This document shows, in pieces, positions 22,830 to 62,640 of a stretch of DNA of 64,000 nucleotides. The notes under the pieces are model-generated. The model did no database searches and was not told the DNA's origin. It saw only the letters and a list, made by a program, of their open reading frames with translations. Positions within the stretch are counted from its first letter, which is position 1; every line of letters begins with the position of its first letter. The position numbers and the translations under genes are program-made. Origin of the DNA: Gerris lacustris (Eukaryota; Arthropoda; Insecta; Hemiptera; Gerridae); assembly GCA_951217055.1 (NCBI GenBank), contig OX578282.1, forward strand, positions 72,011,092-72,075,091. The letters are read 5' to 3'.

Positions 22830-23469
22830 GTTATTAAAACACTGAAAAAAACCCAGGGTTCGGTCACAAAACAAAATCCAACTCACACCACTCACAACAT
22901 ACTTAAAAACCCGACGTTTCGGCTTTATTTAAAACCTTCTTCAGAGGATCTAAAACAGAAGAAATACAAAAGGTTTACAAAGAATGCAAGTAAATATTAG
23001 AGAAAAGTTAACAGAAAACCCCTTATGGAAGCGCAAAGATTTTAACTTACATTAAGAAACGTTGAAGTGAGAATTAATATAATAAATAATGGAAAGAAAA
23101 CATTAAAATTGACTAGATAAGTAGGGAACAAAAAGTAAATAGAAGAGGTAACCAAAAAGAGAAGGTAACAATATAAAACTTAACTGGTGGCGCCATCTAG
23201 CGGCAACACACCAAAACTACATACAAATTGAATTCAAAAATTCTATAAAACAAATCTAAAAAAGTCCAATAACCATTAAAAACATTAAAAAACATTATAA
23301 AAACATTAAAAATACTAAAAATACTCTATTCAATCAGTCCAGAATTCACAACATGCAAATTATCTATGTCACTTCTAAAATTTAGAGATAATGGGTCCTT
23401 TTTAATAAAAAGCATTTCCAGGGTACGGCGTTTATTTTCATCTGGCTCCTTAGCCAATACCTTGACGTC
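22830..23469 (-). mobile_element. Inverted partial copy of the Penelope-like 3' half
   Basis: The reverse complement matches 28370-28443 and 34218-34779: GACGTCAAGGTATTGGCTAA, the end of the endonuclease frame, TCTAAATTTTAGAAGTGACA, GTGTTGCCGCTAGATGGCGC, and CCTCTGAAGAAGG...GCCGAAACGTCGGG. Homology stops at about 23469, where the plus-oriented copy begins. It keeps only the last residues of the coding region. Confidence 0.88.
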
Positions 23470-23899: not shown

Positions 23900-24871
23900 T
23901 TAAATAAATCTATTTTTTAAGGTATTAAATTTATTAAATTTTAATGATTTTGTCAATATGTCTGCTACTTGATGTTCAGACGGACAATACTCAATGGTCA
24001 AAACTTTATTAATGACATTTTCTCTAAGAAAGTAAAACCGAACATCTATATGCTTGCTACGTTTGTTAATAACACCATTCTTAACCAGTGATATGGCACT
24101 TTGATTGTCAACCATAAGTCTTATATTAACGTGTTTATTATCTAATTCACTGAGAAGTGATGTTATGTACAATACCTCAGGACAACAATCTGCTGCCGCA
24201 ATGTACTCAGCTTCACAACTTGAAGTTGCAACAATTGGCTGGAGACGTGAGCACCAGGAGATGGGTCCTCCTCGGTATAGCAGCATGTAGCCAGTAGTGC
24301 TACGTCTTGTCTTCACACAACCTGCATAATCTGAATCTGAGAATGCTAAAACATCTTCAGATCAACTGTTTCTCTTCAACTCGATTCCTTCGTGTATAGT
24401 CCCTTTTAAGTATTTTAGTATTTGTTTTACCTGGTTAACATTTTGTTTGGTAGGTTTCGACATAAACCTGCTGCAGTAACTTACAGCAAAGGTTATGTCT
24501 GGTCTCGTCCATGAACTTAAGTAAATCAAACATCCAACTGCTTCAGAGTAAGGGAAATTAACTGGCTGATTATTTTCCTCATCTTCATTTAAATTATTAA
24601 GAGTCATTGGTGTTTGTGATTCCTTGGCTTGATCCAATCCAAATTTCTCAAGGATTCCTTTGGTATATCTAGAGTTAGATAGCTTCAGACCGTTCTCTGT
24701 ATAACTAATTTCCACACCCAAAAAGCTTTCAACTTTATCACACACTGTTATTTCAAAGTCTTTGTATAATTCATTTATAATCCAGTTAAGTTTACTTTCA
24801 TTTTGACTGAAAATAATTCCATCGTCAACATACAAACAAAGATAAATAGAACTATCCTTATGCTTGAACAA
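23900..24871 (-). pseudogene. Copia RT C-terminal part and RNase H
   Basis: The RT catalytic box YVDDGIIFS lies near the start, then YTKGILEKFG and VNQVKQILKYLKGT. An in-frame TGA at 24362-24364 interrupts. The same frame then continues into copia RNase H (TRRSTTGYMLLYRGGPISWCS, SSCEAEYIAAADC, NKRSKHIDVRFYFLRE). It ends at 23900, shortly before the truncated 3' LTR. Confidence 0.9.
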
Positions 24872-28579: not shown

Positions 28580-28596
28580 CTCCTATCCTTAGTTTA

Positions 28597-29417
28597 GAAT
28601 AGAATAGAATAGAATAGAATAGATTTTATTTGTTTAAGTACATATAGGATACTTGTTACAAATAGAGTTGCTTTTGATATATATATATGATACATTTCAA
28701 TCAAAGTAAAAAGAAATCGTTTTTTTTACAAAACAGAACGTAAGTTTATAAATGAAAATGAAAATTAAATTTTATAATTGATCACTTGTGATCCTGTATT
28801 ATTTTAATGAAAATATGAAATATGTTGAAATTAAAATGTACATATGTTGGCTTAAACAATACGATAATAACAATTATAATAAAATAAATTAAACTGTACA
28901 TTCATGAAATATAATGATGACCTCTAACACCGGAGGTAATGCACTGATAAGGAGGCAGACAAAAGAAAGAAAGAAACCAATAAATAAATAATTATGTACA
29001 TTTAACTCTATGTGAGTCATGCCGAGTCTGGCTTCAAACAATAAACATTAAACATTAAATTATAATCTGACTTTATGCTCGACTAATCAAAAACTAGTTT
29101 AAATTTTAGACATATAATAATGATAACGTAATATTTTAACACTTTATAAAATTGACCAAAAATAAGACAAATTAAATTTAAAAATTAGTTAAATAAAAAT
29201 TAATTTAATATCTTCACAAAAACAATGATTAAAATTATATAAGTGGCTGGCAAAGTAGAATAATGTCCATAGACATGTATGTAGACGAATTAAGCCAAGT
29301 CTTTTCGTTGACATAGGTTGATTCGTAAGTGTAAGGTAGATTGGTAAATTAAACATTTAAAATTATATATAAAGGGGGGAAAATTTATATAATAGTATTA
29401 CTTAATATATTTATATA
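28597..29417 (-). other. LINE 3' untranslated region
   Basis: AT-rich non-coding sequence after the ORF2 stop, ending in the TATTC-repeat tail. No further ORF is recognised. Confidence 0.75.
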
Positions 29418-32400
29418 TTAATCATAAAGGAGAAAGCTTCTTATAGTAGCAATATTTTTAAAATAAAAAAAGATGTTTTTACTGGTTGTTTTATCAAAGG
29501 AACTTAAGATGGAGGCAATGTTGGTCGAGGTACTACTATTGGGATCTGTAAGGTTCATTGGTAAGTATTGTTTTCTGATAGGTTCGTATAGGGGGCAGTG
29601 AAACATTATATGACCTAGGTCCTCAGCTTGTTGATTATTACATACGTTGCAAGTAGTGTCAGTGTGGATCTTATATACGATACCATTGAAACAAATTCTT
29701 ATCGAGTTAAACCCTGAGGTACGAACTTGTGCTAAGACTTTCTGGAAATTAAAAGGTAGGTTTGAAAATAGGTAGTTACTGTTAGAGCAGTTAATCGATT
29801 TGTAGAAAAGGCTGTAAGAAGACTCGTTGATTCTTTTCAGATTTTCCTCTTGTAGTATCATTTCATATTTCTCTATGATATCGTTTATCATTGGTTTGTC
29901 TATGGCTCTAGTCAACATACTGTCAAAATCCAAACCGTCGATATTATTTATAATAGCTTTTAGCTGAGTGAACCAATTTAGCTTCAAACTATTATTGGGA
30001 GTCGAGTCTAGATATTTAAGCCTTTCAAAGCAAACTTTTACTAGTTTATCTGGGTCTAGATATTGGATGTGACTGACGTAGTTCAAGGCTTGTTTTAATA
30101 CAAAAGATGAAACATGTGTTAGATTAAATTCAGCTCTTACGATGTAGTGGGGGACATTACTCTGTAGGGAGAAATATTTTTTAAAGAAAAAGGTTTGAGC
30201 CGCTTCAAGATCCGATAGGTACCGTAAAGCCCATACTGGGGCACCGTAAGTCAAAGTAGGAATTACACAAGATTTGAATGTTTGTAACACTGCGTCAAAT
30301 GAACTATTTTTGGCCGCTGCCAAGGTTGATTTGAGTGCACCGGAAGCGGAACGAGAACGACTTATAGCTTGCTGCGACGCTTGCTCAAACACTCCTTTTC
30401 TTGAGAAACACACACCCAAATAATTAAACTTGTTCATTTCTTCCACAATGTGACCGTTATAGAATATTTTTTTTCTATTTTTAGATAAGTTGCCTTTGCT
30501 AAAAATTACAGCTTTAGTTTTATCTAAATTGACTTCTAACCCATAGAGACGACAATATTCGTGCAGTATATTCAGTTTTTTATTCATATCGAGTGCAGAG
30601 GTAGCAAATATAATTAAATCGTCACAGTAAAGTAGAATAATAATATCTTTCACTCCATCGATATTAACTCCTTCAGCCCCTCTGGCTCTAAGAAAGTCTT
30701 CTAAATCAGCTATGAGGATATTAAATAAAAGGGGGGAGAGTATTTCGCCTTGTAATAAGCCTTTCAGAATATCGATAGGGTTAGAAGTCAGATTATTATA
30801 TCTAATTTTTGTCCGAGCTCGACTATATAAGTTTTTGACGACTCTAATTATTTTGTCACTGACTTTAAGATCTTTAAGTTTAGCAAATAGGATGTTATGA
30901 CGCACTTTATCAAAGGCTTTTCTAAAATCAATGAAACATGTGTAAATTTTCCTTTTTGAAAGTCTCAAATGGTTTTGTATAACAGTGTTTAGGATGAATA
31001 TATTGTCAAGGCAGCTTTTGCCACTCCTAAATCCTGCCTGTATATCGGGGATAAGCCTGTGCTTTTCAACCCACTTATATAATCTTTTATTAAGAATAGA
31101 AGTAAAAATTTTTGCGGTACAATTTACCAACGAAATACCCCGGTAATTATTTAAGTCCTCTTTGTCTCCTTTCTTAAACAAGAGAGTTGTTAAAATGTCT
31201 GACCAGTTACGTGGAATTTCACCTGAATCTATTATTCTATTAAATAAAACTGTCAGACATAAAATCCAATTAGGTGGTAGATTTTTGAGAACATTGTAAC
31301 CAATTCCGTCAGTTCCCGGCGAGGAACTATTCTTTGATTTGGATATGGCATCTATTATTTCTTCTTTGGTGATGGGTGAATCAAGTTCGGGTTCAGAATG
31401 AATTAGTTCGAAGCAAGAATTGTCCGAGAGTGGATTATTATCATCGTACATCAGATCTTTGTAAAACGTTTCCCATGCTTTAATATCGATTTTAATTGAG
31501 CCATTGAAGGTTTTTTTTTTAAAACTCATTATAGTTTTCCAAAATTCACTAGAATTTTTAACGTTGTTCAATGCTTGGGTTATGCTGAAATTATAGTTTT
31601 TCTTTTTTTGACGAACTAGTTTTTTATATTGTGCAGCGACCTTACAAAAATTACTTTTATACGGTTCGAAAAATGTATTCTTTTTACAAATTCTTAACTG
31701 CTTACGGAGAGATCTTTGGGAATTATAGCATTCAGCATCAAACCACGGTTTTTTGTATCTAGGCGAGGAAGTTAATAGGTTTCTAGGTGATCTTTTTATA
31801 AGCCCTAGCTGATTCGCTACAGATGTGGCTTCCTCTATAAAACAGTTATACAGCTCGTCTACCGATAGGTGATTTATCTCAGTAAGCCGTCGGGAGAGAG
31901 ACATGAGAGATTGAAAATTATGACTCGAGTTTTCGTTCCAAACAAGTTTAGAGAAATAAGTAGTTACGGAACCATCCCCGGTTTTATAAGGGGGGATTCG
32001 AGAGGGTAAATCTAATGTAAGTAAGAGAGGTAAATGGTTGATTAAAGGCAGCGATGTTATAACTTCAAGATCTATAACTTTTTCTAATTGGGGAAGTCTA
32101 CACCAAACTAGATCTACCGTACTTGTACCTGACACAATGATGTTAGTGAAACTACCCGGATTATCGGATTTAGATCTACCGTTAATCAAAACAAAACTAT
32201 AAGATTCAAATAGTTCTATTAGGTCTTTACCTCGTTTGTCAATTTTAGCATCCATAGACCGCCTGTATCTTAAAAGATTTGTATTATTTTCGTCTGTAGG
32301 TAAACAGTTATTAAGATCTCCTACTCTGCCATTGAAATCCCCACCCACGATAAACAGCTCTTCTGGAAAGTTAGATATTATATTATTTAGAACTTCGTTA

Positions 32401-32804
32401 AAGTAATCAAAAATAAATTCTATTTTGATATTAGGTTTAAAATAAACTAAACCGATTATTAGGGGCAGGGTGTCATTAGATGTTAATCTTAAGAATAACC
32501 AATATTCAGACTTATCAAGTACATGTGAAGTATACCTTTCTGAGACTAAGCATGCCAAGCCACCGCTGGCTCTTCCACGACTCTTTTCTCGAATAGCAGC
32601 AGAGGTAATAATATTATGGCGTGGTAGAGAGGAGGGAGCTGCAGTGATGTCTTCCATCTTCCATGTCTCACAAAGACCGATTGCAGTGTAGTTAGCGAAT
32701 TTGTGGCTGAATTCCAGAAAATTATTGTATCCATTGCAGTTCCAGAAAGTTAATAATGTGGTTGGAGCCGTGGACTTGGTGGTGTTAGACGGGTTTGCTC
32801 TTAG
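29418..32804 (-). CDS. LINE ORF2, endonuclease-reverse transcriptase
   Basis: The frame is open from the codon after the ORF1 stop. The first ATG is 49 codons in (32657), but conserved APE residues precede it (FWNCNGYNN and GLCETWK), so functional translation must start or enter upstream. APE endonuclease continues with FIVGGDFNGRVGD and SGTSTVDLVWC. RT follows with SPGTDGIGYNVLK, FIDFRKAFDKVRH, GLLQGEILSPLLFNI and the catalytic YCDDLIIFA. The C-terminus carries a C-x2-C...H...C cluster (CNVCNNQQAEDLGHIMFHC). About 1128 residues from the stop, or 1079 from the ATG. It nicks target DNA and copies LINE RNA by target-primed reverse transcription. No internal stop. Confidence 0.93.
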   Translation of the reverse strand, partial: LRANPSNTTKSTAPTTLLTFWNCNGYNNFLEFSHKFANYTAIGLCETWKMEDITAAPSSLPRHNIITSAAIREKSRGRASGGLACLVSERYTSHVLDKSEYWLFLRLTSNDTLPLIIGLVYFKPNIKIEFIFDYFNEVLNNIISNFPEELFIVGGDFNGRVGDLNNCLPTDENNTNLLRYRRSMDAKIDKRGKDLIELFESYSFVLINGRSKSDNPGSFTNIIVSGTSTVDLVWCRLPQLEKVIDLEVITSLPLINHLPLLLTLDLPSRIPPYKTGDGSVTTYFSKLVWNENSSHNFQSLMSLSRRLTEINHLSVDELYNCFIEEATSVANQLGLIKRSPRNLLTSSPRYKKPWFDAECYNSQRSLRKQLRICKKNTFFEPYKSNFCKVAAQYKKLVRQKKKNYNFSITQALNNVKNSSEFWKTIMSFKKKTFNGSIKIDIKAWETFYKDLMYDDNNPLSDNSCFELIHSEPELDSPITKEEIIDAISKSKNSSSPGTDGIGYNVLKNLPPNWILCLTVLFNRIIDSGEIPRNWSDILTTLLFKKGDKEDLNNYRGISLVNCTAKIFTSILNKRLYKWVEKHRLIPDIQAGFRSGKSCLDNIFILNTVIQNHLRLSKRKIYTCFIDFRKAFDKVRHNILFAKLKDLKVSDKIIRVVKNLYSRARTKIRYNNLTSNPIDILKGLLQGEILSPLLFNILIADLEDFLRARGAEGVNIDGVKDIIILLYCDDLIIFATSALDMNKKLNILHEYCRLYGLEVNLDKTKAVIFSKGNLSKNRKKIFYNGHIVEEMNKFNYLGVCFSRKGVFEQASQQAISRSRSASGALKSTLAAAKNSSFDAVLQTFKSCVIPTLTYGAPVWALRYLSDLEAAQTFFFKKYFSLQSNVPHYIVRAEFNLTHVSSFVLKQALNYVSHIQYLDPDKLVKVCFERLKYLDSTPNNSLKLNWFTQLKAIINNIDGLDFDSMLTRAIDKPMINDIIEKYEMILQEENLKRINESSYSLFYKSINCSNSNYLFSNLPFNFQKVLAQVRTSGFNSIRICFNGIVYKIHTDTTCNVCNNQQAEDLGHIMFHCPLYEPIRKQYLPMNLTDPNSSTSTNIASILSSFDKTTSKNIFFYFKNIATIRSFLLYD

Positions 32805-33680
32805 TCAAGTATTTTTCCTGTCGTTCTTAAGATTTGATTTTAAATTTGAGAGAAAACCCGTAAGATCTATGGTGCTGATTTCATTTAATTTTTCAATCCC
32901 AGGTTTCTTCTTGTGTAGGAGATCGTGTTCATCATTTATGTCGAAACGAGTGTTATTGACATACATATAGTCATCTACAACTGAAACTCTTATATGTGCA
33001 TTTTTAGTCTTGATTTCTTTCCTTAAAGCTAATAGGATGTGACGTTTGGTTCTTACTTTAGGGGAGAAGTCCCTCTGTACACTGTAAGAAGTTCCTGCAA
33101 GTACTGAGCATTTGCTTAAGATTAAATGAATGTCGGCGTCCCGCGGTAAGTTTACTATTATTAGGTGCTCGTTGGAGTTTTTATTTTTGATAACTCGGGC
33201 TTTGTTAATACAAATTTCAGACGGCTCAATTTTTAATACATCATTACAGAAAGCTTCGATGGTATTATCTGCACTTAAATTATTTTCAGCTGGAAGGCCT
33301 TTGAAAATCAAGTTATTTTTCCTAGTTAGATTATCCAAGTGATCTAGCCGACGAATAATGTCACTGTTTGAGGTTTGTAAAGTTGATATATTCGCTTTAA
33401 TCTTTGAATTGTCTTCAGACAATTCGGATAGCTTAGCATTAATGCCCCTCAGATCGTCTTTAGTAGCTATATTAGCTAATTTTTCATCAAAGAGTTTCTC
33501 AATTGATTCAAGGGATAATGCCATTTTTTTTGTATTATTAACTGGTAAATTGGGAGATGTCGATAGTTCCCGTTTTTGTCTTTCCTTTACGCCTTGTCCT
33601 TGAAGAACTGATTGTTTACTAGTATTAGCGATAACAGGCTTATCTTGGGTATTATATGAATTGTCTTCTAGATTAAACAT
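32805..33680 (-). CDS. LINE ORF1, coiled-coil RNA-binding protein
   Basis: From the first ATG (33680) the product is 291 residues; the open frame extends upstream to about 33770 without ATG. A helical stretch of charged heptads (LFDEKLANIATKDDLRGIN through TSNSDIIRRLDHLDNLTRK) suggests a coiled coil. It is followed by NNLIFKGLP, a conserved KARVIK and HLIIVNLPRDADIHLIL. This layout resembles L1-type ORF1 (coiled coil, RRM-like domain, C-terminal domain), which coats LINE RNA. It ends in a TGA at 32805-32807 followed by CTA, in frame with ORF2. Confidence 0.8.
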   Translation of the reverse strand: MFNLEDNSYNTQDKPVIANTSKQSVLQGQGVKERQKRELSTSPNLPVNNTKKMALSLESIEKLFDEKLANIATKDDLRGINAKLSELSEDNSKIKANISTLQTSNSDIIRRLDHLDNLTRKNNLIFKGLPAENNLSADNTIEAFCNDVLKIEPSEICINKARVIKNKNSNEHLIIVNLPRDADIHLILSKCSVLAGTSYSVQRDFSPKVRTKRHILLALRKEIKTKNAHIRVSVVDDYMYVNNTRFDINDEHDLLHKKKPGIEKLNEISTIDLTGFLSNLKSNLKNDRKNT

Positions 33681-34149
33681 CAGCTTTGCACCGAGCCCCG
33701 CACTAAAGAAGGGAGGGAGTAAGCTTCGAGTTAGCACGGGCTGACCCGGGCGATCCCCACTCCTCGGCAACGAGGATTATGAATGGACTGCCTCGCTCGG
33801 TAGCGTATTAATGAATGGAATGCCCCTCTACTCCACTTCACTACCAATGTGACATGCGCGTAGGCTTTTCAACGGTCGTTTCTTTGAAATCACGCAAATA
33901 ATGTAAAATGCCTGAGAAATTTTACCTTCTAACGATACTTTTTATGCTGGAAATATCCACAGATTTTTAAAGATGAGTTAAGAAAATGAAACACAAATTC
34001 ATAAGCTACCAATTACCACAAAAAATAACTGTCAAATAACGGTTTGAACTGTAAAAAATACGATTTTAAACGGAGCGTATGAGAATAGATGTTACTCGCA
34101 TGGCGTCAAGGACACAACTCTCAAGGACACAACTCCTATCCTTAGTTTA

Positions 34150-34217: not shown

Positions 34218-34773
34218 CATTATCTCTAAATTTTAGAAGTGACATAGATAATTTGCATGTTGTGTATTCTGGACTAATTGAATAGAGTATTTTTAGTATT
34301 TTTAATGTTTTTATAATGTTTTTTAATGTATTTAATGGTTGTTGGACTTTTTTAGATTTGTTTTATAGAATTTTTGAATTCAATTTGTATGTAGTTTTGG
34401 TGTGTTGCCGCTAGATGGCGCCACCGGTTAAGTTTTATATTGTTACCTTCTCTTTTTGGTCACCTCTTTCTATTTACTTTTTGTTCCCTACTTATCTAGT
34501 CAATTTTAATGTTTTCTTTCCATTAGTTATTATATTAATTCTCACTTCAACGTTTCTTAATGTAAGTTAAAATCTTTGCGCTTCCATAAGAGATTTTCTG
34601 TTAACTTTTCTCTTATATTTAGTTGCATTCTTTGTAAACCTTTTGTATTTCTTCTGTTTTAGATCCTCTGAAGAAGGTTTTAAATAAAGCCGAAACGTCG
34701 GGTTTTTAAGTATGTTGTGAGTGGTGTGAGTTGGTTTTTGTTTTGTGACCGAACCCTGGGTTTTTTTTCAGTG

Positions 34774-35137: not shown

Positions 35138-36793
35138 TTAGAATCGGACTTCCTTCGGAAGGCTGATAGGTGATGATGGTGTCGGCTCTGGGTCCTGGAT
35201 ATTTTCCTGATGGCTAATGGAACTTATAATTTTCCTAAGTTTGTTGTATACAAGGAAAACGATTATAGCAATTAAGATAATTAGGAAAACATAGAATGAC
35301 CAAAATATTGCATGATGACCATCAGTGATGTAAGGTAACTCTGCAACTGCTGGCATGACGGGGTTGATACTTATATCCTTGGTGTTTAATGTCTTCAGGT
35401 TAACCGTGAAGTTTGGTGAAGTTAGTTCGTTTAATTCAATGTTTAAGGGTCTGATAATATCAGGTTGCCCTTTGCTAACAGAAACATAGTTTAGTAATTT
35501 ATTTCTGTAATATATCTTGTCCCTACCTGGATTTATTAAAAATACACCTTGAAGAGACTTGCTTTCTGTTCCTTTGTCGGTGGAAGCGACTATCTCATCT
35601 TTGTTAGGGAATACTAACAATAATTGATTAATTTCAGGTATGAGGTCCACATGACTTTTCTCTACTGTAAGTCCTAAGTAGGTACAAGCTTTAGCAGTTT
35701 TATTTAGCATTATTTCTTCTTCGCAATAACTATGTCTATGTGATAGCAGTGACATTGTACATTGATAGACTTCATTTTTGGTACACATATTATTTAGAGG
35801 TTTAATTACATTATTTTTGTCAGATTTCAACAAGTACTTGGTATCAGGAATTATCGTTACAAATCTATGTTTGTTTTTTGTAGGAAGAGGATGTAAGTAA
35901 TACAATTGGTATGTTTCGTCATCATTAATCGGTAATGTTAAAAAGTATATAATCTCGCTAGACTGTACTTTGCAATCTACTTTTAATAAGGATTCCAAGT
36001 TTAATATATTTTCATATTTTAATTCAAGCGGTAAGGTTGAACCATAGTGACTTTGAATCATTTTAAGTTCATCAAAGAATTCATTTGTTTTAATGATACT
36101 GGGATGCAAGGCTTTAAGCTTGCAAAAAGTCAATGATGTTTCTACATCTTGTAAAATACTTACAATGGTACTATATAAAATTTGCAATTGATTTAATAAG
36201 TCCTTAACAATAAGAATATTATAAACATGATTATTTTTAATAACTAAATCCTTAACCTCTAATATTTTTTTCCTTATTTCTATAGTGTTATACTGAATGT
36301 CTTTTATGGTGTTATTAAAATTATTTATTATTTGTCTATTAATAGAGTATTGAGCATTCAGTTGGGTTTGTAAATTTAGCTCGTTAGTCTTGATATGTTC
36401 TATGACTTTATCATACTTCAAAGCGTCTTCGGCATCTAAATTACCGGTAATGGCTTTTATAAGACTTCCTAACCCGTTTATAGCACCTCTTCTAAATCTA
36501 GTTTTAAATTGATTGACATCTATATTCCTAATTTTATTCCTTATAATATTTTTTGTAAATTCTATAATCTTACAGTAACTAGTTGTGTCATTATTATAAA
36601 ACTTACTATTAGACAAAATATTATTATATTGAAAATTTAAAAATTTATATTCTTCATAAAGTGGCCTTAAATTATAATAATGGATAAATGTATGGTAGGA
36701 AGTTTGCAGTTTAGCAAGGCCCAATTTGATTGGGAGGACGCCCAAGTTATTGGTGACGTCTTTTATTTCGTGTCCTCCTGCGATCCAGAACAA
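35138..36793 (-). CDS. Copy A envelope glycoprotein, baculovirus F-like
   Basis: Open for 551 codons, nearly identical to the env of copy B. A basic RFRR site at residues 99-102 is followed by GAINGLGSLIKAITGNLD, the fusion-peptide-like signature shared by errantivirus envelopes and baculovirus F proteins. A hydrophobic segment (FWSFYVFLIILIAIIVFL) near residues 497-518 is the expected membrane anchor, with a cytoplasmic tail of about 30 residues. No ATG occurs in the first 240 codons and no signal peptide is visible, so translation probably needs an upstream exon supplied by splicing. The frame overlaps the end of pol by about 30 bp. Confidence 0.88.
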   Translation of the reverse strand: MFWIAGGHEIKDVTNNLGVLPIKLGLAKLQTSYHTFIHYYNLRPLYEEYKFLNFQYNNILSNSKFYNNDTTSYCKIIEFTKNIIRNKIRNIDVNQFKTRFRRGAINGLGSLIKAITGNLDAEDALKYDKVIEHIKTNELNLQTQLNAQYSINRQIINNFNNTIKDIQYNTIEIRKKILEVKDLVIKNNHVYNILIVKDLLNQLQILYSTIVSILQDVETSLTFCKLKALHPSIIKTNEFFDELKMIQSHYGSTLPLELKYENILNLESLLKVDCKVQSSEIIYFLTLPINDDETYQLYYLHPLPTKNKHRFVTIIPDTKYLLKSDKNNVIKPLNNMCTKNEVYQCTMSLLSHRHSYCEEEIMLNKTAKACTYLGLTVEKSHVDLIPEINQLLLVFPNKDEIVASTDKGTESKSLQGVFLINPGRDKIYYRNKLLNYVSVSKGQPDIIRPLNIELNELTSPNFTVNLKTLNTKDISINPVMPAVAELPYITDGHHAIFWSFYVFLIILIAIIVFLVYNKLRKIISSISHQENIQDPEPTPSSPISLPKEVRF

Positions 36794-37779
36794 CCTGCAA
36801 CAGGTTCATTATCTTTAATTTTAACTCTAGGTCTTTTTATATTGCTTAAATGAATTTTTTCCCTGGTGTTATAGTGTCTAGGTTCTATTTGAGCTGTTTT
36901 TAGCGTTTTGTTAACAGACTTTGAGGTTTCCTGTTTATATTTAGGTTTTGTTTTGCTCTGTTTCTGTTTGATTTTAACATATACTTTCTCAGGTATATTT
37001 GGAAGGGGTTCTCTATCTTTGTTTGCATTTCCAATTACTTTAGCTTTATAATTAATACTTTGTTCGTTAATGTTATTGTATAAGAGTTTCATTTTTTCTC
37101 TGTGACTCTCTATGTAGTCATTTACAAGCTGTTGTTCCTGATAAAATTCGATTGCATTTTTAGTTGAGTTAATAATTATACAATTTGCTTCATGATTATT
37201 AACATTTACAAGACATTTGGGAATTTCTAAGTTATTGATTTTTGTGTATGGAATTACGGCTTTTCCGTTTTGAATATTATTTATTTTTAACTTTGTAAGT
37301 CTTTGGGACTTGGGAGGAATAATATAAGGAGATTTATTATGCTCTTGAAAAGGTTTAATTCTCTTGTCAAATTTTTCGGGAGGAATATCTGTATCTCTAA
37401 AATATATCTTAATTTCAGTGCAAGGTGTTATGATTTTATTATTAATAAAATCTACTTGAGCTTGAAGCATTATTAAGTTGTCTAAACCTAACAATACATC
37501 GTAATTATCATGGAAATTAAATAGATGAAACTTAAGTTTCAGGTTTTTTATTTTAAACAAGTCCTCACAGTCTATTTGAGTACTATATTTTCCTACGGAG
37601 TTTCCATGAGCGGTAGTTATTTGATACGGGTCATCTACAATTAAATCTTTGAAATATTTATGGGCTACATCAGGTCTGACAAATGATTTACTGCTTCCAC
37701 TATCAATAAGAATTTTTAAACTATATTTAAGTAAGATTACATATGGTAAAACACTAAATTGATTTGATAGGTTTAACAT
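36763..37779 (-). pseudogene. Copy A protease joined to integrase tail (RT, RNase H and IN core deleted)
   Basis: 338 codons open from ATG 37779. The protease motif LIDSGSSKSF is near residue 25 and the protease-linker region runs to about residue 211. The sequence then jumps directly to the integrase C-terminal tail (EQQLVNDYIESHREK) and ends normally with GCSGSQEDTK. Compared with copy B, about 2.7 kb covering RT, RNase H and integrase catalysis is missing, yet the frame stays open. It cannot replicate without help. It starts 24 bp after gag and is entered by frameshifting. Confidence 0.9.
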
Positions 37780-52300: not shown

Positions 52301-52482
52301 CTAAATATAAACAGGAAACCTCAAAGTCTGTTAACAAAACGCTAAAAACAGCTCAAATAGAACCTAGACACTATAACACCAGGGAAAAAATTCATTTAAG
52401 CAATATAAAAAGACCTAGAGTTAAAATTAAAGATAATGAACCTGTTGCAGGTTGTTCTGGATCGCAGGAGGACACGAAATAA
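49357..52482 (+). pseudogene. Copy B pol, second part (RT, RNase H, integrase)
   Basis: Continues pol after the hAT insertion, beginning with the second target-duplication copy. Counting from ATG 49360: RT with WRIVIDYRKLNEKT (about 151) and catalytic YLDDIIVFS (253-261). RNase H has TTDASNYAIGAVL (about 400) and later E and D residues. The integrase HHCC finger ends CEICQITKYD, and the catalytic D, D, E lie near residues 759, 814 and 849 (HIDSI, SDYGLEF, PIERFH). A basic Lys/Gln-rich tail ends GCSGSQEDTK. No stop is seen inside. The break at 48116-49356 separates it from the protease and gag, so the copy is inactive as it stands. Its 3' end overlaps the env frame. Confidence 0.93.
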
Positions 52483-54107
52483 AAGACGTCACCAATAACT
52501 TGGGCGTCCTCCCAATCAAATTGGGCCCTGCTAAACTGCAAACTTCCTACCATACATTTATCCATTATTATAATTTAAGGCCACTTTATGAAGAATATAA
52601 ATTTTTAAATTTTCAATATAATAATATTTTGTCTAATAGTAAGTTTTATAATAATGACACAACTAGTTACTGTAAGATTATAGAATTTACAAAAAATATT
52701 ATAAGGAATAAAATTAGTAATATAGATGTCAATCAATTTAAAACTAGATTTAGAAGAGGTGCTATAAACGGGTTAGGAAGTCTTATAAAAGCCATTACCG
52801 GTAATTTAGATGCCGAAGACGCTTTGAAGTATGATAAAGTCATAGAACATATCAAGACTAACGAGCTAAATTTACAAACCCAACTGAATGCTCAATACTC
52901 TATTAATAGACAAATAATAAATAATTTTAATAACACCATAAAAGACATTCAGTATAACACTATAGAAATAAGGAAAAAAATATTAGAGGTTAAGGATTTA
53001 GTTAGTAAAAATAATCATGTTTATAATATTCTTATTGTTAAGGACTTATTAAATCAATTGCAAATTTTATATAGTACCATTGTAAGTATTTTACAAGATG
53101 TAGAAACATCATTGACTTTTTGCAAGCTTAAAGCCTTGCATCCTAGTATCATTAAAACAAATGAATTCTTTGATGAACTTAAAAAGATTCAAAGTCACTA
53201 TGGTTCCACCTTACCGCTTGAATTAAAATATGAAAATATATTAAAATTTGAATCCCTATTAAAAGTAGATTGCAAAGTACAGTCTAGCGAGATTATATAC
53301 TTTTTAACATTACCGATTAATGATGACGAAACATACCAATTGTATTACTTACATCCTCTTCCTACAAAAAACAAACATAGATTTGTAACAATAATTCCTG
53401 ATATCAAGTACTTGTTGAAATCTGACAAAAATAATGTAATTAAACCTCTAAATAATATGTGTACCAAAAATGAAGTCTATCAATGTACAATGTCACTGCT
53501 ATCACATAGACATAGTTATTGCGAAGAAGAAATAATGCTAAATAAAACTGCTAAAGCTTGTACCTACTTAGGACTTACAGTAGAGAAAAGTCATGTGGAC
53601 CTCATTCCTGAAATTAATCAATTATTGTTAGTATTCCCTAACAAAGATGAGATAGTCGTTTCTACCGACAAAGGAACAGAAAGCAAGTCTCTTCAAGGTG
53701 TATTTTTAATAAATCCAGGTAGTGACAAGATATATTACAGAAATAAATTACTAAACTATGTTTCTGTTAGCAAAGGGCAACCTGATATTATCAGACCCTT
53801 AAACATTGAATTAAACGAACTAACTTCACCAAACTTCACGGTTAACCTGAAGACATTAAACACCAAGGATATAAGTATCAACCCCGTCATGCCAGCAGTT
53901 GCAGAGTTACCTTACATCACTGATGGTCATCATGCAATATTTTGGTCATTCTATGTTTTCCTAATTATCTTAATTGCTATAATCGTTTTCCTTGTATACA
54001 ACAAACTTAGGAAAATTATAAGTTCCATTAGCCATCAGGAAAATATCCAGGACCCAGAGCCGACACCATCATCACCTATCAGCCTTCCGAAGGAAGTCCG
54101 ATTCTAA
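52452..54107 (+). CDS. Copy B envelope glycoprotein, baculovirus F-like
   Basis: 551 open codons from 52452; the frame is open only from 52440, just after an in-frame TGA, and has no ATG for more than 240 codons. A basic RFRR cleavage-type site (99-102) precedes GAINGLGSLIKAITGNLD, the fusion-peptide-like signature of this family. The ectodomain has Cys residues and N-x-S/T sites. The membrane anchor is FWSFYVFLIILIAIIVFL (about 497-518), with a 30-residue tail. A TTGCAG at 52445-52450 could be the acceptor of a spliced env mRNA, as known for errantiviruses. Function inferred by family: receptor binding and membrane fusion. Confidence 0.9.
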   Translation: MFWIAGGHEIKDVTNNLGVLPIKLGPAKLQTSYHTFIHYYNLRPLYEEYKFLNFQYNNILSNSKFYNNDTTSYCKIIEFTKNIIRNKISNIDVNQFKTRFRRGAINGLGSLIKAITGNLDAEDALKYDKVIEHIKTNELNLQTQLNAQYSINRQIINNFNNTIKDIQYNTIEIRKKILEVKDLVSKNNHVYNILIVKDLLNQLQILYSTIVSILQDVETSLTFCKLKALHPSIIKTNEFFDELKKIQSHYGSTLPLELKYENILKFESLLKVDCKVQSSEIIYFLTLPINDDETYQLYYLHPLPTKNKHRFVTIIPDIKYLLKSDKNNVIKPLNNMCTKNEVYQCTMSLLSHRHSYCEEEIMLNKTAKACTYLGLTVEKSHVDLIPEINQLLLVFPNKDEIVVSTDKGTESKSLQGVFLINPGSDKIYYRNKLLNYVSVSKGQPDIIRPLNIELNELTSPNFTVNLKTLNTKDISINPVMPAVAELPYITDGHHAIFWSFYVFLIILIAIIVFLVYNKLRKIISSISHQENIQDPEPTPSSPISLPKEVRF

Positions 54108-59729: not shown

Positions 59730-61334
59730 TTAGAATCGGACTTCCTTCGGAAGGCTGATAGGTGATGATGGTGTCGGCTCTGGGTCCTGGATATTTTCCT
59801 GATGGTTAATGGAACTTATAATTTTCCTAAGTTTGTTGTATACAAGGAAAACGATTATAGCAATTAAGATAATTAGGAAAACATAGAATGACCAAAATAT
59901 TGTATGATGACCATCAGTGATGTAAGGTAACTCTGCAACTGGCATGACGGGGTTGATACTTATATCCTTGATGTTTAATGTCTTCAGGTTAACCGTGAAG
60001 TTTGGTGAAGTTAGTTCGTTTAATTCAATGTTTAAGGGTCTGATAATATCAGGTTGCCCTATGCTAATATAAACATAGTTTAGTAATTTATTTCTGTAAT
60101 ATATCTTGTCACTACCTGGATTTATTAAAAATACACCTTGAAGAGACTTGCTTTCTGTTCCTTTGTCGGCGGAAACGACTATCTCACCTTTGTTAGGGAA
60201 TACTAACAATAATTGATTGATTTCAGGTATGAGGTCCACATGACTTTTCTCTACTGTAAGTCCTAAGTAGGTACAAGCTTTAGCAGTTTTATTTAGCATT
60301 ATTTCTTCTTCGCAATAACTATGTCTATGTGATAGCAGTGACATTGTACATTGATAGACTTCATTTTTGGTACACATATTATTTAGAGGTTTAATTACAT
60401 TATTTTTGTCAGATTTCAACAAGTACTTGATATCAGGAATTATTTTTAAAAATCTATGTTTGTTTTTTGTAGGAAGAGGATGTAAGTAATACAAATGGTG
60501 TGTTTCGTCATCATTAATTGGTAATGTTAAAAAGTATATAATCTCGCTAGACTGTACATCGCAATCTACTATTAATAGGGATTCAAATTTTAATATATTT
60601 TCATATTTTAATTCAAGCGGTAAGGTTGAACCATAGTGACTTTGAATCTTTTTAAGTTCATCAAAGAATTCATTTGTTTTAACGATACTGGGATGCAAGG
60701 CTTTAAGCTTGCAAAAAGTCAATGATGTTTCTACATCTTGTAAAATACTTACAATGGTACTATATAAAATTTGCAATTGATTTAATAAGTCCTTAACAAT
60801 AAGAATATTATAAACATGATTATTTTTACTAACTAAATCCTTAACATCTAATATTTTTTTCCTTATTTCTATAGTGTTATACTGAATGTCTTTTATGGTG
60901 TTATTAAAATTATTTATTATTTGTCTATTAATAGAGTATTGAGCATTCAGTTGGGTTTGTAAATTTAGTTCGTTAGTCTTGATATGTTCTATGACTTTAT
61001 CATACTTCAAAGCGTCTTCGGCATCTAAATTACCGGTAATGGCTTTTATAAGACTTCCTAACCCGTTTATAGCACCTCTTCTAAATCTAGTTTTAAATTG
61101 ATTGACATCTATATTCCTAATTTTATTCCTTATAATATTTTTTGTAAATTCTATAATCTTACAGTAACTAGTTGTGTCATTATTATAAAACTTACTATTA
61201 GACAAAATATTATTATATTGAAAATTTAAAAATTTATATTCTTCATAAAGTGGCCTTAAATTAAAATAATGGATAAATGTATGGTAGGAAGTTTGAAGTT
61301 TAGCAGGGCCCCATTTGATTGGGAGGACGCCCAA
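59730..61334 (-). CDS. Copy C envelope glycoprotein
   Basis: The frame is open for 534 codons as listed and extends upstream to the same FWIAGGHEIKD start as copies A and B. The RFRR-GAINGLGSLIKAITGNLD site and the C-terminal anchor (FWSFYVFLIILIAIIVFL) are kept. One Ala codon is missing near the anchor (MPVAEL versus MPAVAEL), plus scattered substitutions. The intact frame contrasts with the ruined pol just upstream. As in the other copies there is no early ATG. Confidence 0.85.
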   Translation of the reverse strand: MGVLPIKWGPAKLQTSYHTFIHYFNLRPLYEEYKFLNFQYNNILSNSKFYNNDTTSYCKIIEFTKNIIRNKIRNIDVNQFKTRFRRGAINGLGSLIKAITGNLDAEDALKYDKVIEHIKTNELNLQTQLNAQYSINRQIINNFNNTIKDIQYNTIEIRKKILDVKDLVSKNNHVYNILIVKDLLNQLQILYSTIVSILQDVETSLTFCKLKALHPSIVKTNEFFDELKKIQSHYGSTLPLELKYENILKFESLLIVDCDVQSSEIIYFLTLPINDDETHHLYYLHPLPTKNKHRFLKIIPDIKYLLKSDKNNVIKPLNNMCTKNEVYQCTMSLLSHRHSYCEEEIMLNKTAKACTYLGLTVEKSHVDLIPEINQLLLVFPNKGEIVVSADKGTESKSLQGVFLINPGSDKIYYRNKLLNYVYISIGQPDIIRPLNIELNELTSPNFTVNLKTLNIKDISINPVMPVAELPYITDGHHTIFWSFYVFLIILIAIIVFLVYNKLRKIISSINHQENIQDPEPTPSSPISLPKEVRF

Positions 61335-62640
61335 TTTATTGGTGACGTCTTTTATTTCGTGTCCTCCTGCGATCCAGAAAAACCTGCAACAGGTTCATTA
61401 TCTTTAATTTTAACTCTAGGTCTTTTTATATTGCTTAAATGAATTTTTTCCCTGGTGTTATAGTGTCTAGGTTCTATTTGAGCTGTTTTTAGCGTTTTGT
61501 TAACAGACTTTGAGGTTTCCTGTTTATATTTAGGTTTTGTTTTGCTCTGTTTCTGTTAGATTTTAACATATACTTTCTCAGGTATATTTGGAAGGGGTTC
61601 TCTATCATCGTTTGCATTTCCAATTACTTTAGCTTTATAATTAATAATTTGTTCGTAAATGTTATTGTATAAGAGTTTCATTTTTTCTCTGTGACTCTCT
61701 ATGTAGTCATTTAAAAGCTGGTGTTCTAAGTTCATATTGAAGGGGGATTCCGGATCTAAATGCCCGTTCAGGATATTTACTGGAGCTGGTTTAGTTACTG
61801 AATGTATGGAGTTATTGTACGCTATTAAGGCATGGATTACTTTGTTCTGAGTCTAATTTAAAAGCTTGCGCATATTTTGAAAAAGTGTCAATAACTAAAA
61901 AAAAAATTGTGGCTTACCAAATTGATATTAAATTCTAATTTTAACATCAGAGAAACTCATTCTCCTGCGTAGCTTAGTTGGTAGAGCGCTTTACTGGAAA
62001 TATAGAGGCCCGTGGTTCAAATCCCGGCGCTGGAGTGTATTTTTCTCTGCCTGTTTCCCGTAGTTAATAATAATAATAATTTGATTTAAATCTAATTTTA
62101 ATGATCTATCATATTTGGTGATTTGGCAAATTTCACAATTATTAATGGATTTCTGAATAAATTATTTTTGATTTGGCCAATAGTATAAGGTTTTAATTTT
62201 GTTTAAGGTTTCCTCAATATCTCTATAGTTGGTTTTTCCGACATGATAATTATTTATTATTTCTGATGTTTCATCATTAGATACTAATTTATTAGTAAAC
62301 CTAACAAAGTTAATTTCTTATTCCTTAAAGTATTTTATATAAAGGCGGCACAAAATCAGTTTCAAAGTAAATGTTATATTTAGCATATTTATTATTTTTT
62401 ATTTTTGGGGACTACATAAGCTTTAATAAATTTTACTAAATATTTTTTTCTTTGATAACTGAACAATCAATATTTGTTTATTGTTGAATAGTTGGATGAC
62501 TTTAGTTTGGGCGGGACTGTGTTCTACGAGGGAAAACACTATTTGATTAGAACCTTGATTTAAAAGACAGTTGGCTATAATAGGAACAATTACTATGTAT
62601 TTCCTTCACAATTTGTATGGACTGTTTACTAACTTACTTT
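61335..62640 (-). pseudogene. Copy C pol remnant (integrase fragments)
   Basis: The minus strand shows similarity to the integrase tail (61378-61740) with an in-frame TAA near 61559. A direct jump near 61850 goes from FSKYAQA-type sequence to the C-terminal helix region, so the second D and the E are deleted. A SINE then interrupts (61945-62090). Beyond it (62100-62640) lie shifted pieces of the HHCC finger (NCEICQITKYD-like) and the RNase H-integrase linker. It cannot encode an enzyme. Confidence 0.8.
61945..62090 (+). mobile_element. tRNA-derived SINE with 11-bp target duplication
   Basis: Flanked by TCTAATTTTAA at 61934-61944 and 62091-62101. The head (about 61962-62036) folds like a tRNA: A box TAGCTTAGTTGG, B box GGTTCAAATCC, acceptor arms TCCTGCG/CGCTGGA with one mismatch. 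The anticodon stem is imperfect, so it is a SINE head and not a tRNA gene. The body TATTTTTCTCTGCCTGTTTCC matches the copies at 9625 and 44665. Confidence 0.85.

Follow-up and report, generated by a model that had tools for sequence, protein, structure and literature searches.

A clade of LINEs in the genome of Gerris lacustris very probably makes its ORF2 protein as an ORF1-ORF2 fusion, through programmed readthrough of the stop codon that lies between the two frames. The element studied here is on the minus strand of the window, as we call the whole stretch of 64,000 nucleotides that was analysed; it is young, and its putatively leaky stop is kept also in sister families of the same genome. 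It seems probable too, if by a shade less, that this recently active clade has exchanged restart at ORF2 for programmed readthrough on a short context, namely a stop followed by a C that is invariant in every family read. Both UGA and UAG would serve as the stop, up to the exact tobamovirus motif, and the resulting ORF1p-ORF2p fusion would be an analogue of Gag-Pol. An earlier note on this DNA had put forward readthrough for the single element, and this interpretation draws support from the conserved stop and C and from the common frame of ORF1 and ORF2; it is from these features that we infer readthrough itself, its level and the working of an uncleaved fusion.

Structure of the element and of its ORF1-ORF2 junction

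The element is a full-length non-LTR retrotransposon of 5536 bp (28597..34132, minus strand), whose 3' tail is made of TATTC repeats. It is flanked by a 17-bp target-site duplication (28580..28596 and 34133..34149), the two copies of which match perfectly, as the earlier note had read them. At the 5' end of the LINE a 15-bp unit is repeated in perfect tandem (34106..34135, minus strand), its last bases overlapping the duplication, and the alignments of three other copies described below (L007, L008 and L009) begin at or next to the second of these units.

ORF1 (32808..33680, minus strand) has 291 codons counted from its first ATG at 33680, and upstream of the TGA its frame runs for 323 codons without a stop. 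The predicted protein consists of a coiled-coil-like stretch and a conserved domain, and has a database relative in P0040. In Pfam no family was matched consistently by the six ORF1 proteins compared, and a PDB search with their profile returned weak matches only, mainly to coiled coils. ORF2 (29418..32804, minus strand, 1128 codons) ends in a TAA at 29420-29418 and encodes an APE-type endonuclease, a reverse transcriptase and a C-terminal zf-RVT-like stretch that scored below the cut-off. The reverse transcriptase is of the non-LTR type (RVT_1, 3e-37 in Pfam), Exo_endo_phos_2 was matched at 4e-5, which is under the curated Pfam cut-off, and no protease domain was found in the element by Pfam. 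With this reverse transcriptase, an APE-type endonuclease at the N-terminus of ORF2 and target-site duplications, the element is a non-LTR retrotransposon (LINE). Scans of viral contigs and of the genome contigs database returned no relatives of it.

Other features of the window were observed alongside. A 383-bp repeat is present at 23012-23393 and at 34218-34600, 97.4% identical and in opposite orientation, and the second copy adjoins the LINE insertion upstream. Three near-identical frames of 554-555 codons (35138-36805, 52440-54107 and 59730-61394), two of which have gag- or pol-like frames as neighbours, have what we take to be the look of envelope genes of insect gypsy-type elements.

The ORF1 stop and the bases +4 to +6 after it occupy 32802..32807 on the minus strand, with TGA at 32807-32805 and CTA at 32804-32802, and the same frame then stays open for 1128 codons. 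ORF2 has no in-frame ATG before codon 50 (32655..32657, minus strand), which leaves a leader of 49 codons between stop and ATG (32658..32804, minus strand), composed of linker codons 1-16 and of the endonuclease start in codons 17-49. The motifs FWNCNGYNN (codons 20-28) and GLCETWK (codons 43-49) both lie in this leader, as does a near-cognate start codon, the ACG of codon 12 (32769..32771, minus strand). These coordinates bear out what the earlier note had said of the ORF1 TGA, the CTA next to it, the frame common to both ORFs, the ATG at codon 50 and the endonuclease motifs ahead of that ATG. The layout is more than a chance one. Counting both strands, the window contains 8530 stop trinucleotides, of which 25 (0.29%) are a TGA with CTA next to it, and only two of its in-frame stops are flanked on each side by 150 open codons or more. 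The other is a TGA TCT at 24364 on the minus strand, and the frames upstream of it are presumably copia-like.

The junction in other copies of the family

A search of the 937-Mb genome with the junction as query returned six matches, the window included. Two of the other copies are full-length: L007, which is 99.64% identical over 5513 bp and flanked by a duplication of 17 bp, and L008, which is 99.86% identical over 5503 bp and flanked by one of 15 bp. The three full-length insertions occupy different sites, are 99.6-99.9% identical and each contain 323 open codons, TGA CTA and then 1128 open codons, and the first ATG is codon 50 in L007 and L008 as it is in the window. The TGA CTA is kept in three older copies as well, at 97% (L009), 88% (L010) and 80% identity (L011), the last of these being a relic with 214 bp matched in which a TAA follows a few codons past the TGA. 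The earlier note had held that a TGA CTA conserved in most intact copies would favour readthrough, and this is the pattern found, in 3/3 full-length intact insertions and in the 97%, 88% and 80% copies besides. Since the TGA CTA is common to copies at different sites, the source elements of these insertions already carried the stop.

An in-frame ATG ahead of the endonuclease motif is absent from the three full-length insertions and from the three older copies. The ATG at codon 50 is itself not conserved, being absent from the 88% copy (L010/L015), whose 150 open codons contain no ATG at all. The string TGA CTA AGA GCA AAC is identical in this copy and in the window. Over leader codons 1-49 the two differ by seven synonymous and nine nonsynonymous changes, a pN/pS of 0.35 that is a rough guide, the 88% copy being itself decayed; the corresponding values are 0.17 for ORF1 and 0.66 for ORF2 codons 50-149. 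When the leader is subdivided, pN/pS is 0.62 in codons 1-16 (5 changes) and 0.26 in codons 17-49. These values show some coding constraint downstream of the stop and in its frame, that on linker codons 1-16 being weak.

Sister families share an in-frame stop followed by C

When the same genome was searched with ORF2, 41 of 11532 candidates scored, the relatives being about 46-54% identical to the window ORF2, and further places were added through searches with the L033 ORF2 and with P0001. The 48 loci collected (L011-L058, window included) comprise 42 with an intact junction and six that were left out. In four of the six (L019, L032, L035 and L056) no endonuclease start was found; L018 is decayed, with a TAA in the leader and another in-frame stop eight codons upstream of the TAA; and L011 is the 80% relic, with its TGA CTA kept and a TAA soon after. 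Clustering into families was by single linkage with a cut-off of 75% identity, for which at least 40 of the 200 N-terminal ORF2 residues had to be compared; this threshold, of our own choosing, gave 14 families, L053-L055 being clustered on 46-74 residues only. L057 and L058, with 281 and 221 bases read, were added by eye as families 15 and 16, and for these two the in-frame count was likewise made by eye. At least eight related places stand outside the junction count (C1:95298147, C1:3582175, C9:57926554, C8:59852686, C3:6187944, C1:124164344, C2:61063189 and C6:11910161), as do several 5'-truncated places from the L033 ORF2 search; all eight are related LINEs in which ORF2 stays open over a long stretch. 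The P0001 search brought up nine new places, namely the seven first named here and L057 and L058, whereas C6:11910161 came from the search with the L033 ORF2.

A single in-frame stop followed by C was observed just upstream of the endonuclease in all 16 families with a readable junction and, counted by copies, at 42/42 loci with an intact one. The trait is thus wider than the single element for which it was first proposed. The stop is TGA in 13 families and TAG in three. The window family has TGA CTA, while TGA CGG is found in L016, L020 and L037, TGA CAA in L022, L026, L043 and L048, TGA CGT in L027 and L053, TGA CAT in L028 and L054, and TGA CGC in L030; the TAG families read TAG CAA ACG (L033), TAG CAA CTA (L057) and TAG CAA TTA (L058). 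ORF1 is in the same frame as ORF2 in the 14 longer families. An ORF1 HMM matched in 13 of these 14, with E-values that are flattering, the HMM having been built from members of the same set, and in L027 ORF1 was placed in frame by a tblastn match of the window ORF1 C-terminus. Over the upstream codons read in L057 and L058 (57 and 47 respectively) no stop interrupts the frame, which falls short of an identification of ORF1. Inside families the length of the leader changes twice, both times by 3 codons.

In an ORF2 tree of the 12 families with full ORF2 and 10 database relatives (L053, L054, L057 and L058 left out), the 12 families group in a single clade (100/100), their terminal branches measuring 0.39-0.57 changes per column. 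Compared with L028 and L030, the TAG family L033 falls inside the TGA families. Given this single clade with long end branches and the position of L033 within it, the stop and its C have outlasted heavy change around them; the stop changed between TGA and TAG while the following C stayed.

The alternative that fares best, improbable as we hold it to be, is termination followed by reinitiation at a nearby non-AUG codon after the UGA, such as the ACG of codon 12. This would be an unusual form of the restart after ORF1 that has been described for SART1 and proposed for L1 (PMC5972666). The ACG GCT at codon 12 has a G at +4 and is kept in the 88% copy, and in three of the 16 families (L022, L030 and L033) an in-frame ATG does occur after the stop and ahead of the endonuclease, an observation that also speaks against the readthrough reading. 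However, an in-frame ORF2 AUG of the SART1/L1 kind, located no earlier than the ORF1 stop yet ahead of the endonuclease, is absent from 13 of the 16 families, the window family included, and the ACG is replaced by TCG in the 80% relic. In Zorro3, changing the ORF2 ATG to ACG left less than 5% of wild-type retrotransposition, or 18% when the RNA-matched set was used (PMC1965478). Restart at a non-AUG codon, moreover, predicts neither the common frame nor a C after the stop in every family.

The stop and the following C as a signal

Position +4 is C in all 14 longer families, while +5 and +6 vary and the residue encoded after the stop is Leu, Arg, Gln or His; this variation points to a constraint on the nucleotide C. 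As a control, C followed the ORF2 terminal stop in 0 of the 10 families in which that stop was read, and it followed 16.8% of the off-frame stops that these loci contain in their other two frames. A contrast of 14/14 against 0/10 would arise by chance once in 1,961,256 if the rows were independent, a figure that is overstated, the families being related. The 16 families are not 16 independent origins, and their in-frame layout is partly inheritance.

The general marks of programmed readthrough, a conserved stop with a weak context and coding constraint downstream in the same frame, are found at this junction. Among viral readthrough contexts, UGA-CUA and UGA-CGG are classed as type II and UAG-CAR-YYA as type I (PMC3542737). 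UGA followed by CUA or CGG occurs in the window family and in three sister families, and the other UGA families, with CAA, CGT, CAT or CGC, lie outside the type II context. The type I context occurs in L057 and L058 only, L033 having TAG CAA ACG. UGA CUA is also the high-readthrough consensus for human genes (PMC4359377), and UGA-CUA alone has been reported to support only 1.5% readthrough (PMC4132726), a low level that speaks against the readthrough reading.

In the 100 nt 3' of the stop, no RNA structure beyond that of shuffled sequences was detected in 14 families (all but L057 and L058; z -1.47 to +2.07), and none stood out in four stretches around the window stop (z +0.69 to +1.08). The stem-loop which in type II begins about 8 nt downstream was not found, and the site is not classed as full type II. 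The lack of a 3' structure counts against readthrough, as type II viral sites often have one; in view of its absence from 14 families, the short stop context seems to suffice.

A further alternative is that ORF2 is translated from a separate or spliced mRNA, or from an internal ribosome entry site, the in-frame stop being incidental. We regard this as highly improbable, since it would leave the invariant C, the common frame and the codon constraint after the stop all unexplained.

The start of the endonuclease

A profile built from ORF2 together with five relatives from the database matched human L1 ORF2p with an E-value of 2.4e-60, the alignment beginning at the very start of the endonuclease. 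In this alignment the Asn of codon 22 (32739..32741, minus strand) is matched to an L1 residue that we take to be the one named N14, and the Glu of codon 46 (32667..32669, minus strand) is matched to E43; the reference chain, 9k6g_A, is numbered one lower than the residue names used here. The claim that endonuclease residues precede the first ATG is thereby confirmed at codons 22 and 46. E43 is one of two residues changed in EN-dead L1 (PMC10830420). Zorro3 requires an endonuclease Asn that is highly conserved and lies close to the start of ORF2, as seen with N17A (PMC1965478); this N17 is taken to be the same Asn as codon 22 and L1 N14. A single-sequence structure model of the endonuclease had a mean pLDDT of 36 and was set aside.

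As codons 22 and 46 precede the first ATG, translation from codon 50 would give a protein that lacks both residues. To such a start, with the endonuclease dispensable or truncated, we give almost no credence: codon 50 is the first AUG in frame, but the residues aligned to L1 N14 and E43 would be dropped, the Asn among them being needed in Zorro3, and the ATG is unconserved, its position, where seen, wandering from codon 3 to codon 203 in the sister families, with none in the 88% copy. Just as negligible is the idea, raised in the earlier note, that the stop is a post-insertion mutation in a single fused ORF, or else that the copy lost a real ORF2 ATG; a single substitution in one copy could achieve either, but both are ruled out, and the former refuted, by the TGA CTA without an early ATG that separate insertions share and by the same layout in the sister families. 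A search for a fused-ORF relative gave 0 of 7392 candidates at E <= 0.01, the search being of low power and missing endonuclease relatives too.

Proposed mechanism and comparison with known systems

In the readthrough mechanism that we propose, ribosomes would make the ORF1 protein and mostly stop at the UGA, or at the UAG in some families. The C directly after the stop would weaken termination, and in a small share of the ribosomes a near-cognate tRNA would read the stop, so that translation continued in the same frame, the product being an ORF1-linker-endonuclease-reverse transcriptase fusion. The ratio of ORF1 to ORF2 would then be set by the stop context. The arrangement strongly suggests that occasional readthrough is needed to make the enzyme by which the element is copied.

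A predicted protein of Cordylochernes scorpioides (P0006) has an ORF1-like start joined to a partial ORF2, which may be a gene-model join. It carries ESNPGP near its N-terminus, a string that we take to resemble a 2A motif.

The closest parallels are viral. The type II sites of alphaviruses and tobraviruses share with these LINEs a UGA followed by CUA, as in this element, or by CGG, as in three sister families, and in those viruses, as here, the C-terminal extension carries replication enzymes (PMC3542737). They differ in that the present sites belong to LINEs and have no detected 3' stem-loop. The type I sites of tobamoviruses and Providence virus (UAG CAR YYA) are matched by the TAG CAA TTA of L058 and the TAG CAA CTA of L057, although here the context belongs to a retrotransposon group in which most families use UGA. 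Gammaretroviruses are LTR elements with a protease. Their gag-pol resembles the fusion predicted here, in that a structural protein is joined to reverse transcriptase by readthrough of an in-frame stop, but it relies on UAG-G and a compact pseudoknot, unlike the present sites (PMC3542737). The animal UGA-CUA readthrough genes OPRL1, AQP4, MAPK10, LDHB and MDH1 have the same six-base context (PMC4132726, PMC4359377), whereas their extensions are those of cellular proteins.

L1, SART1 and Zorro3 likewise pair an ORF1 with an endonuclease and reverse transcriptase ORF2, but reach ORF2 by restart, overlap or an ATG of its own and not by in-frame extension (PMC5972666, PMC1965478); in Zorro3 the ORFs do not overlap, an interORF region lies between them, and the ORF2 ATG is needed (PMC1965478). 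Passages of a recoding review name HeT-A frameshifting and unusual initiation in L1, readthrough in LINEs not being among their examples (PMC5009743). No precedent for readthrough in LINEs was found among the titles and abstracts listed from the open-licence literature, subscription papers and Repbase notes being outside that scope. The mode of recoding is known, and in this class of element it is apparently new.

The way in which LINEs obtain their second protein has long been an open question and has been studied in few elements, and in these families the answer can be read from the sequence. A single genome here also supplies a ready-made set of candidate readthrough signals that show no obvious RNA structure. 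If the readthrough reading is true, the logic of Gag-Pol, with its fixed low ratio and a reverse transcriptase physically linked to the ORF1 protein, would extend to non-LTR elements, and it would also bear on cis preference.
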